Of a stretch of 64,000 bases of DNA, positions 8,797 to 12,242 are shown piece after piece. Both the position numbers and the translations under genes were made by a program. The notes beneath the pieces were generated by a model, which had not been told where the DNA came from, did no database searches, and saw only the letters and a program-made list of their open reading frames with translations. The stretch is from Geodermatophilus marinus. Its GTDB lineage: Bacteria > Actinomycetota > Actinomycetes > Mycobacteriales > Geodermatophilaceae. Positions within the stretch are counted from its first letter, which is position 1; each line of letters opens with the position of its first letter. The DNA is taken from contig NZ_QVQH01000001.1 of assembly GCF_003428645.1 (NCBI RefSeq), positions 401,110-465,109 of the forward strand, in the 5' to 3' direction.

Positions 8797-10293
8797 TCAG
8801 GCGCCGTGGACGAGCAGCGGGTCCACCCCTGCGGGGACCACGTCGCCGGGCTCCTCTTCGTGGAGTTCCGCCGCGGCCACGGAGGCGTGGAGGTGCGAGG
8901 CGAGCTTGTCCTCGCGTCGGACGTCCACGATGTGCCCGGTCCAGGAGGAGATCAGCACGTCCAGGGAGGTCTCGGCGACGGCCCCGGGGGTGAGCAGCGT
9001 GCCCTCCGGCTCCCGGCCGAAGGCCCGGGTCCGCATGGGCGTGGCGGTGCGCTCCGGGTTGATGCAGTTCACCCGGACGCCGTCACCGGCCCACTCGTCG
9101 GCCAGCGCCTGCGTCAGGTTGACGACGGCGGCCTTGGCGGAGGAGTAGAGGCTGTAGCCGCTGCGCCCGCGGGTGTAGGAGCTGGACGTGTAGAGCAGCA
9201 GCGATCCGCCGGTCCGCCGCAGGTGCGGGTGGAAGACCTGTGCGATGTGGATCGGGGCGAGGTAGTTGACCTCGGTCGCCAGGAAGACCGTCTCCTCGCT
9301 GGTCGCGGCCAGCTCGCCGCGGGGGAGCACGCCGGCGGTGTTGACCACGAAGTCCACCCGGCCGGTGGCGGCGAGCACCTGCTCGCAGGCGGCCACGATG
9401 TCGGAGCGCCGCTCGACGTGGGTCCGCGTCTCCGAGCGGCTGAAGGTGAAGGTGGTGGCGCCGTAGGACTCGGCTAGGCGCACGATGTCCGCGCCGATCC
9501 CGTAGGAACCGCCGAACACGACGACGGTCTTGCCCTCCAGGGCTGCCCGGTACTCGGCCTCGAACCGCGGCCGGGGCGCATCGTGGCTGTCGAGCTGGAA
9601 CAGCTTGTCGGCGATGTAGACGTCGATGGGCTCGGTGACCTTCATGTTGCGGTCCTCGCCCCGGACGACGGCGATCGGCACGTCGGGCAGGTAGCGCAGC
9701 ACCACGGTGCAGTCGTCGGTCGCCTCGAAGTCCGGGTCACCGGCGGCGAGCTCGTAGGCCCGCCGGATGACGGACAGGCGGAAGCACTGCGGGGTCTGCC
9801 CCCGGCGCAGCAGCGGCCGGTGCAGCACCTGGTCGATCGTCTGGCCCGTCGCCTCGTCGACCTTGATTATCGTGTCCGCGGAGGGGATGGCCGTGTCCAC
9901 GGCCTCGTACTCGTCCAGGGCGTCGACGCAGTCGGCGATGACCCGCTGGCTCAGCAGCGGCCGCACGGCGTCGTGGAAGAGGACGTTGCACTCATCGGCG
10001 CCCAGCGCGTCGATGGCCCGCTGGGTGGTGGCGTTGCGCGTGTCGGCGCCCTCGAGGACCTCGGTGACCTTCGGGTAGGCGCCCGACCGGAGGAAGCCGC
10101 GGACGGCGTCGAGGTGACCGGGCGTCATCATCACGACGATCTCGTCGATCAGCGGTGAGGCGTTGAGCAGCCCGATGGTGTGCTCGATGATCGGCTTGCC
10201 GGCGACCTTGATCAACTGCTTGGGGATGGACAGGCCCACGCGCGTCCCCGTGCCCCCGGCCAGGACCACCGCCACGTTCCGCAGTCTCGTCAC
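8797..10293 (-). CDS. Bifunctional ribitol-5-phosphate cytidylyltransferase / SDR reductase (Bcs1/Acs1-like)
   Basis: 498 residues in two domains. Residues ~1-235 are an IspD/TarI-type cytidylyltransferase with the nucleotide loop AGGTGTRVGLSIPKQ and an HDAVRPLL segment. Residues ~255-485 are a short-chain dehydrogenase with a GGSYGIGAD cofactor loop, NTAGV, and a catalytic Ser plus Y-x3-K (YSLYSSAK). This arrangement matches Bcs1/Acs1 of Haemophilus capsule loci, which reduces ribulose-5-phosphate and activates ribitol-5-phosphate to CDP-ribitol. It heads the operon and would supply the CDP-polyol for both transferases. I chose GTG 10293 because a TACGGT -10 hexamer (10306-10301) lies seven bases upstream, which suggests a leaderless mRNA. 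The longer open frame (to 10344) has no conserved sequence. Confidence 0.87.
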   Translation of the reverse strand: MTRLRNVAVVLAGGTGTRVGLSIPKQLIKVAGKPIIEHTIGLLNASPLIDEIVVMMTPGHLDAVRGFLRSGAYPKVTEVLEGADTRNATTQRAIDALGADECNVLFHDAVRPLLSQRVIADCVDALDEYEAVDTAIPSADTIIKVDEATGQTIDQVLHRPLLRRGQTPQCFRLSVIRRAYELAAGDPDFEATDDCTVVLRYLPDVPIAVVRGEDRNMKVTEPIDVYIADKLFQLDSHDAPRPRFEAEYRAALEGKTVVVFGGSYGIGADIVRLAESYGATTFTFSRSETRTHVERRSDIVAACEQVLAATGRVDFVVNTAGVLPRGELAATSEETVFLATEVNYLAPIHIAQVFHPHLRRTGGSLLLYTSSSYTRGRSGYSLYSSAKAAVVNLTQALADEWAGDGVRVNCINPERTATPMRTRAFGREPEGTLLTPGAVAETSLDVLISSWTGHIVDVRREDKLASHLHASVAAAELHEEEPGDVVPAGVDPLLVHGA

Positions 10294-10306
10294 GAGCACG
10301 ACCGTA
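10294..10306 (-). promoter_or_regulatory. Probable leaderless promoter of the CDP-ribitol synthase operon
   Basis: On the minus strand a TACGGT hexamer (10306-10301) is followed by seven bases and the GTG start. A -10 box this close puts transcription initiation at or next to the start codon. No good -35 box is visible at the normal spacing. Confidence 0.5.
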
Positions 10307-10396
10307 GCGACAGAGCGTGATCGCACAGTTGCACATGGGATCACCGAGACGGCGTGGGACGAAATGGTGCCAGAGGGACGGCCCGGGCCGTCCCGG

Positions 10397-11694: not shown

Positions 11695-11991
11695 CTACAG
11701 CCGGCCGCGGCCCTGGCGGAGCAGCATCATGCCGAGCGCGGCGCCGTCGCTGCCGAGCGCCTCCTGGAAACGGGCCAGCACCTGCTGCTCGCGGGCGAGG
11801 GAGAGCCGGGTGCCACCCGCGGCCCGGCGCAGCTCACCGATCTCCCGGGAGACGGCCAGGCGTTGGCGGACCAGGCGGATGATCTCCGCATCGCAGGCGT
11901 CGATCTCCTGGCGCAGCTCGGAGATGCGGGCGTCGGGCGCGGTGGGCGGCGGCGTGGCGGGGGCCGGCGTGGCGGGGATCATGGCGGTCAT
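11695..11991 (-). CDS. Chorismate mutase, AroQ-delta type
   Basis: 98 residues, an all-helical chorismate mutase that converts chorismate to prephenate for Phe and Tyr synthesis in the cytoplasm. The core ISELRQEIDACDAEIIRLVRQR with a later GGTRLSLAREQQVL helix and the C-terminal LLLRQGRGRL tail match the Mycobacterium intracellular enzyme Rv0948c. That enzyme has low activity alone and is activated by binding DAHP synthase; the same GRGRL tail suggests the same mode here. ATG 11991 has a GGAGGAA ribosome site six bases upstream. The gene is preceded by an aromatic leader peptide and a terminator hairpin (12036-12143), so transcription attenuation by charged Phe/Tyr tRNA is likely. Its divergence from pcrA/uvrD1 is the same as in Mycobacterium. 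Confidence 0.92.
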   Translation of the reverse strand: MTAMIPATPAPATPPPTAPDARISELRQEIDACDAEIIRLVRQRLAVSREIGELRRAAGGTRLSLAREQQVLARFQEALGSDGAALGMMLLRQGRGRL

Positions 11992-12035
11992 CGGTTCCTC
12001 CGGTGCGGGGGGCCGTCGGGCCCGGAGGACGAGAA

Positions 12036-12064
12036 ACGCCCCGGGCTCCTCGGGCCCGGGGCGT
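12036..12064 (-). terminator. Attenuator terminator hairpin before chorismate mutase
   Basis: On the minus strand an 11-base perfect stem (ACGCCCCGGGC with its complement) and a 7-base loop are followed directly by TTTCTCGTC. It lies between the leader peptide stop (12081) and the mutase start (11991), so it would end transcripts before the structural gene. A short T-run is rare in this GC-rich window and supports intrinsic termination. Confidence 0.78.
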
Positions 12065-12080
12065 CTGTTGCGGCGTGTGC

Positions 12081-12143
12081 TCAGCCAGCGGTGACGGACA
12101 CCGGAACCCGGTGGCCGTAGTAAAAGCTGCGCGCGGTGAGCAC
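12081..12143 (-). CDS. Aromatic leader peptide of the chorismate mutase attenuator (20 aa)
   Basis: A 20-codon frame (GTG start) encodes a peptide with the core ARSFYYGHRVPVSVTAG. The Phe-Tyr-Tyr codons (TTT TAC TAC, plus-strand 12117-12125) are followed at once by a CACCGG-3-CCGGTG hairpin within the reading frame (12099-12113), then the stop, then the terminator at 12036-12064. This is the classic layout of a ribosome-mediated attenuator for Phe/Tyr supply. A CAGACT -10-like hexamer sits six bases before the GTG, consistent with a leaderless start. It is too short for normal gene callers. The functional reading is inference; the peptide and hairpins are directly visible. Confidence 0.72.
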   Translation of the reverse strand: MLTARSFYYGHRVPVSVTAG

Positions 12144-12242
12144 GGCGGGAGTCTGCCACACCCGCGGCGGGCGGCGCCAGCGCACCCGCGGGGCGCGTGG
12201 GGCGGGCGGGTCCGCGACCCGAGGACCGTCGCCCGTCCGAAC

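Follow-up and report, generated by a model that had tools for sequence, protein, structure and literature searches.

In E. coli, mutase and dehydratase are fused in the pheA product, and the leader of pheA reads Phe. The locus described here differs in this respect from pheL, as its mutase is free-standing and supplies Phe as well as Tyr, and both amino acids are read by the leader. A common trait is given by the control of a terminator, predicted in our case, by stalling at codons of the end product in front of a gene with chorismate mutase activity, as far as pheL-pheA is covered by the available part of PMC11802643. In C. glutamicum, the aroR leader upstream of aroF carries Phe-Tyr-Phe (PMC11802643, PMC4046766, PMC3890552, in the excerpts available). 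Similar to the present locus, aroR-aroF combines a gene of the aromatic pathway with a leader, likewise actinobacterial, in which Phe and Tyr codons are neighbours, and transcription is reported in the available text to rise upon Phe limitation, with a response to Phe and not to Tyr (PMC11802643, PMC4046766, PMC7356990). However, aroR precedes the DAHP synthase gene aroF in these sources, whereas the leader studied here precedes a chorismate mutase gene. The statement of the initial annotation that actinobacterial attenuators have been described mainly for trp, leu and ilv genes is too narrow in this regard, since aromatic attenuation is not limited to trp in view of aroR-aroF (PMC11802643, PMC4046766, both as excerpts).

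Actinobacterial trp, ilv and leu leaders share with the mutase leader a short, often leaderless peptide, a GC-rich terminator and complementary strand triples (accessible parts of PMC1262725 and PMC8079986), but they serve other amino acids and other genes. As far as its available text goes, PMC1262725 describes actinobacterial elements for trp, cys, leu and ile and states that conserved structures were not seen before other amino acid pathways. Eight leaders are given for S. lividans in the accessible part of PMC8079986, none of them for Phe or Tyr, and three for C. diphtheriae in that of PMC5784534. The mycobacterial whiB7 and cysteine uORFs are likewise short upstream frames, some of them leaderless, for which control of downstream genes is described or proposed (excerpts of PMC13236596 and PMC4633059), but their signals are antibiotics and cysteine, respectively, and their target genes are others. 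Attenuators before tyrA operons are treated in PMC1173090, the available sections of which contain none for a free-standing mutase gene. In the literature searched, partly available as excerpts and with most subscription papers outside its scope, no attenuator of a free-standing actinobacterial chorismate mutase was found.

The locus is situated in Geodermatophilus marinus (GCF_003428645.1, NZ_QVQH01000001.1, 401,110-465,109). All coordinates refer to positions in the window, i.e., the whole stretch of 64,000 nt that was analysed. The mutase matches Pfam CM_2 with an E-value of 4.8e-12, exceeds the NCBIfam cut-off for PRK07857 and is, among solved structures, closest to the Rv0948c enzyme 2qbv (E 1.6e-18), which belongs to the AroQ-delta subclass (name according to the available text of PMC7762937). 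In this genome, DAHP synthase (class II), prephenate dehydratase and CM_2 protein were each found once, and type I DAHP synthase was not found. A PcrA/UvrD-type helicase gene is located on the other side of the leader. The mutase frame is open across the leader from 12159 to 11695 on the minus strand, and due to this open frame back to GTG 12159 automatic annotation may yield an extended mutase. At 8797-10344 on the minus strand, a single frame fuses an IspD-like cytidylyltransferase and a short-chain dehydrogenase. In the direction of transcription, the features of the leader region are the following:

12150..12155, minus strand: predicted -10 element CAGACT of the leader promoter, a NANNNT hexamer upstream of the start codon
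12081..12143, minus strand: leader peptide gene with GTG start (predicted mRNA +1), 20 codons and TGA, kept in all 37 family genomes examined
12117..12125, minus strand: control codons TTT TAC TAC for Phe-Tyr-Tyr (conserved pattern Phe-x-Tyr), from sequence and family alignment
12096..12116, minus strand: hairpin P1 (strands 1 and 2), directly 3' of the last Tyr codon, based on covariation, 8 of 9 pairs forming in the window
12093..12104, minus strand: strand 2, CCGGTGTCCGTC, predicted partner of strand 3 with strand 1 covered by the ribosome, based on the swap test
12054..12065, minus strand: strand 3, GACGCCCCGGGC, the 5' arm of the terminator plus one base, from script and folding comparisons
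12036..12064, minus strand: terminator-like hairpin with an 11-bp perfect stem (arms 12064-12054 and 12046-12036) and a 7-nt loop
12032..12036, minus strand: short T-rich stretch TTTCT, its first T being the last stem base, read directly
11996..12001, minus strand: Shine-Dalgarno-like GGAGGA of the mutase gene, read and located by script
11695..11991, minus strand: chorismate mutase gene, AroQ-delta type by similarity, the sole CM_2 match of the genome

The 20-codon minus-strand frame with TTT TAC TAC, on which the initial annotation was based, was recovered by direct reading and by script and translates into M-LTARS-FYY-GHRVPVSVTAG. Conservation of the Phe and Tyr codons, expected for an attenuator in that annotation, holds for the pattern Phe-x-Tyr in the leaders of the family: in the alignment of 63 distinct leaders the Phe and Tyr codons are fixed and the middle codon is free. 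The adjacent Phe-Tyr-Tyr is present in the window, but as a triplet it is not conserved: among the 68 distinct family leaders the middle codon encodes Tyr in 36 and Phe in 12, and in the other 20 it encodes Ser (13), Pro (4), Ala (2) or Leu (1). Synonymous bias in the peptide, likewise expected, is strong in the control codons. The first is TTT in 66 and TTC in 2 of the 68 leaders, compared to 5 TTT among 1322 Phe codons of the pcrA frames from the same family loci; among the 72 Phe codons of eight genes in the window TTT does not occur. The Tyr control codon is TAC in 67 leaders and TAT in one. In family f31, with genomes of 6-10 Mb and probably Streptomyces, all 13 leaders use TTT and all 13 use TAT, compared to 0/140 and 3/115, respectively, in a single long comparison frame per locus; these frames were chosen for their GC3 richness, by which such codons are disfavoured from the outset. 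The simplest reading of these spellings is selection acting on the control codons.

In 116 of 122 distinct leaders a NANNNT hexamer, mostly CAGACT, CACACT or CATACT, is located 6 or 7 nt upstream of an in-frame start codon, with a mean of 1.49 such start codons offered per leader, whereas the same procedure succeeds at 2.6% of 9920 random positions in the same loci. Due to this spacing of 6-7 nt between -10 box and start codon, the leader mRNA is most likely leaderless, with the start codon as its 5' end; a leaderless start is reported for other actinobacterial leaders in the available text of PMC8079986.

The short hairpin noticed at 12099-12113, right after the Tyr codons, is present and in fact longer, reaching from 12116 to 12096. 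Covariation in the stems, a further expectation of the initial annotation, was found as strong compensatory change in this stem within the coding region (P1), for which the order-level consensus after the Tyr codon reads GGNNACCGG-NNN-CCGGTNNCC. Across 41 distinct hairpins, with f28, f30 and f31 left out due to their differently built hairpins and with L094, L097, L111 and L117 retained despite poorly fitting stems, 88.2% of cells are paired, 39 cells carry a change on both sides, and 16 further pair types occur; none of 500 shuffles reached the paired fraction, the number of doubly changed cells, the number of types or the score. Five pairs with both sides changed were reached in 6 of 500 shuffles. 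Sliding the partner by 1-3 columns lowered pairing to 21-50%. Covariation, with six pair types, also links the third base of the Gly codon and position 1 of the seventh codon after Tyr. Accordingly, the conservation of Gly-x-Arg and Pro after the control codons is explained most simply by their codons encoding P1. By eye, a similar hairpin with 4-nt loops is present in f30 and f31. The 5' arm of P1 is placed where a ribosome stalled at the control codons would lie, as expected for a protector hairpin; the ribosome reach used for this placement is general knowledge.

The 11-base perfect stem with TTTCT, the mutase start 45 bases further on (ATG 11991) and the clear ribosome site were all located as described in the initial annotation. 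The stretch of 151 nt from 12142 to 11992 folds more stably than 198 of its 200 shuffles. Folding of the leaders revealed a GC-rich hairpin 3' of the stop codon, followed by a T-run in most families, except for f30; in the window the T-run is weak (TTTCT). A single bulged base in the terminator 5' arm is retained in families f8 and f4 (CCCCGNGGTCC), and a similar one occurs in f15 (CCCCGGAGTCC), as seen in L103, L096 and L104. As a separate candidate, sequestering of the ribosome site 3' of the terminator was considered and rejected, as it is plausible in single folds and not in comparison to shuffled upstream sequence.

Strand 2 comprises the 3' arm of P1 plus its extension. Its pairing with strand 3 has a mean of -15.88 kcal/mol within a leader versus -14.13 kcal/mol between families; in the swap test, 28 of 20000 permutations were as good over 16 families and 99 of 20000 over 20 families, and in a composition control, for which strand 2 of every leader was shuffled, a difference of this size arose in 2 of 300 cases. 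In the window alone, this pairing is not above that of shuffled strand 2 (116/200 as good), and for this reason the antiterminator is inferred from the relatives. Leader by leader, most family means differ from the shuffles by less than one standard deviation due to the high GC content of the sequence; among the leader-by-leader results listed, the best are those of L100 (3/200) and L103 (11/200). The predicted antiterminator of strands 2 and 3 is derived from comparison across families. Folding under an imposed ribosome footprint, with strand 4 yet to emerge, gave a mixed picture: in 12 of 20 families strand 3 is predicted to be more engaged when the ribosome is at Tyr than when it is at the stop codon, and in the other eight (f3, f10, f11, f14, f16, f26, f28, and f30) equally or less so. 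In the own family this engagement amounts to 0.79 without ribosome, 0.66 at Tyr and 0.40 at the stop codon, and the maximum without ribosome, which a simple model does not predict, would count against such a model.

The leader, the rare spelling of Phe-x-Tyr, P1, the terminator-like hairpin and the co-variation of strands 2 and 3 across families are established at the level of sequence, and the mechanism would be the classical one. A leader frame with codons of the end products is followed by a hairpin resembling an intrinsic terminator before the gene, and very probably the leader region is a ribosome-mediated transcription attenuator which would raise mutase expression when charged tRNA-Phe or tRNA-Tyr is scarce. 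This interpretation, already put forward in the initial annotation, is supported by the comparative tests, i.e., by the codons, the synonymous bias, the covarying stem and the absence of loss in close relatives. Transcription would begin at the G of the leader GTG, and the ribosome would load on the leaderless mRNA, as suggested by the spacing of the -10 element. With sufficient Phe and Tyr the ribosome would reach the stop codon, strands 3 and 4 would form the terminator, and transcription would end near 12032. In case of a shortage of charged Phe- or Tyr-tRNA, the ribosome would halt at the TTT or TAC control codons. When the Tyr codon occupies the A site, strand 1 of P1, which begins on the next base, would be hidden under the front edge of the ribosome, so that strand 2 would be free to pair with strand 3 and no terminator would form.

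Loss in close relatives, which would have spoken against the attenuator, was not observed: all 37 genomes examined in the own family possess mutase and leader. The 57 named loci L002-L058 belong mostly to Geodermatophilus, Blastococcus, Modestobacter and Klenkia, and in 55 of them the leader was found by pattern. Concerning the other two, it is present in the second copy of L055 (L055 = L120), and the remaining locus begins at the mutase. L051 has no upstream sequence. Six loci with non-actinobacterial matches (L059-L064) were dropped before counting, as were L125, L126, L127, and L133 as second copies of L001, L102, L103, and L101, respectively. In other families of the class, using a pattern widened after the loci were read, a leader was found in 54 of 65 mutase loci. 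Exceptions are given by L098, L101, L116, L132, L135, L139, L140, L142, L161, L163, and L169. For L169 the upstream region is cut off by the contig end, visual inspection of L161 and L163 showed Phe-Tyr and, after it, a possible hairpin, and L116 carries an aromatic-rich frame without hairpin. In family f8, the leader is missing in 6 of 12 loci and thus can be lost. In L101 and L132 (genus g31, f8), where the Phe-Tyr leader is absent, another conserved 5' stretch is shared (GGTCTGTTTCACGGTGAA), located no more than about 280 nt before the mutase match and without Rfam match.

A covariance model built from the control codons and P1 was run over 296 genomes of the class and yielded 20 matches with E-values up to 1e-5, 19 of which are situated upstream of a mutase gene, 9 of these in genomes outside the earlier locus set. 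The remaining match, L192, falls within a long open frame, and no mutase is present there. With 19 of these 20 matches at a mutase gene, this form of the element is thus associated with the mutase. Ten loci with weaker matches (E above 1e-5) were read: L198, L199, and L201 are upstream of a mutase gene, L205 is upstream of a DAHP synthase gene, and six show no mutase. Any match at E up to 0.05 occurs in 110 genomes, most of which rest on weak matches. A scan of the own genome for further copies of the element with the pattern TTYNNNTAYGGNNNCCGG gave 3 matches versus 5 for the reversed control pattern and hence no sign of additional copies. An Rfam 15 scan at gathering score, T-box included, gave no match in the window or in five relative loci.

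At L205, leader (1483-1554) and terminator-like hairpin precede a type I DAHP synthase gene (1665-2711). Among 158 genomes of the class, type I DAHP synthase occurs in 66 and the mutase, at E below 1e-20 and apparently in the same draw of 158, in 45; both genes occur in 5. From the 66 genomes, 65 loci were obtained, with G043 left out as a weak match. In 33 of the 65 a strict script found an aromatic leader of the leaderless type (leaders in L206-L253), whereas family f32 has no leader at its 13 loci. Four loci were skipped by the script, namely L241 and L246 with less than 90 nt upstream, and L222 and L224, which were scanned afterwards and carry no leader. In case of L223, a leader missed by the strict script was recognized by eye. 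For the own class II DAHP synthase gene, the only one found in the genome, and the prephenate dehydratase gene, no such leader was found upstream. Of the five genomes with both genes, one of which is G043, the region before the DAHP synthase gene was read in the other four (G070, G131, G140, and G118) and has no leader; in three of them the mutase gene has one, and in the last the contig with the mutase is cut.

The mutase supplies Phe and Tyr, and DAHP synthase also supplies Trp. Trp codons occur in 15 of 23 distinct 7-residue peptide windows of DAHP synthase leaders versus 2 of 90 of mutase leaders, and in most windows in 7 of 10 families versus 0 of 20 (Fisher, 3e-11 by window and 6e-5 by family), with some selection bias possible as the DAHP synthase criterion admitted Trp explicitly and the mutase pattern less so; the compared windows reach beyond the search patterns. 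The leader codons appear to match the amino acids fed by each controlled enzyme. The type I DAHP synthase leaders of other families may be relatives of aroR of C. glutamicum, and mutase and DAHP synthase leaders may share a common origin. With slight preference, we assume that an ancient aromatic attenuator serving much of the class moved between partner enzymes, residing at the free-standing mutase gene where DAHP synthase is of class II and at the DAHP synthase gene where it is of type I, and that it gained Trp codons there due to the fact that this enzyme also feeds Trp.

The high conservation of Gly-x-Arg after the Tyr codon, within the order often extended by x-Pro-Val, is reminiscent of an arrest peptide, the nascent chain of which would halt the ribosome regardless of tRNA charging and thereby control the mutase. 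Yet these residues are not synthesised while the ribosome reads Tyr, their codons build P1 with compensatory change including the Gly third base, the residues preceding Phe-x-Tyr vary between families (ATVS, QRR, QTTFL), and a high frequency of Trp codons is confined to leaders whose target contributes to Trp synthesis as well; an arrest peptide is therefore very unlikely. Control at the level of translation, with the leader structure masking or exposing the ribosome site of the mutase and no termination of transcription, would be in line with the single-sequence fold of the window, in which this site is paired, and with mycobacterial cysteine leaders, described as acting on translation in the available text of PMC13236596. 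In the family, however, the accessibility of the site is 0.24 compared to 0.29 with shuffled upstream sequence, being lower in 37 of 59 cases and not clearly below, and strand 2 covaries with the terminator arm, which makes this mode of control highly improbable.

Since no stop codon interrupts the mutase frame of the window as far back as 12159, and 32 of 63 family loci have this frame open from the control codons onwards, the true gene might also be an N-terminally extended mutase starting at GTG 12159, with the short frame as a by-product and the hairpins as incidental. In the other 31 loci, though, this frame is closed and the leader is kept, and the Shine-Dalgarno-like GGAGGA at 12001-11996 likewise argues against an extension, which we regard as hardly conceivable.

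The AroQ-delta chorismate mutase is studied as an example of regulation via contact with DAHP synthase (available text of PMC7762937). Beside this contact, the proposed attenuator, being conserved, would add a second, transcriptional control at the branch point. The interest of the element lies in its breadth, its target gene and the agreement of leader codons with end products, and the class concerned includes antibiotic producers and mycobacteria. With Phe and Tyr codons at the mutase and often Phe, Tyr and Trp codons at DAHP synthase, amino-acid-specific stalling becomes testable. For strain builders the attenuator would represent a removable brake on Phe and Tyr synthesis, and if it indeed moved between partner enzymes, the codon content of a leader would predict the end products of the enzyme it controls.
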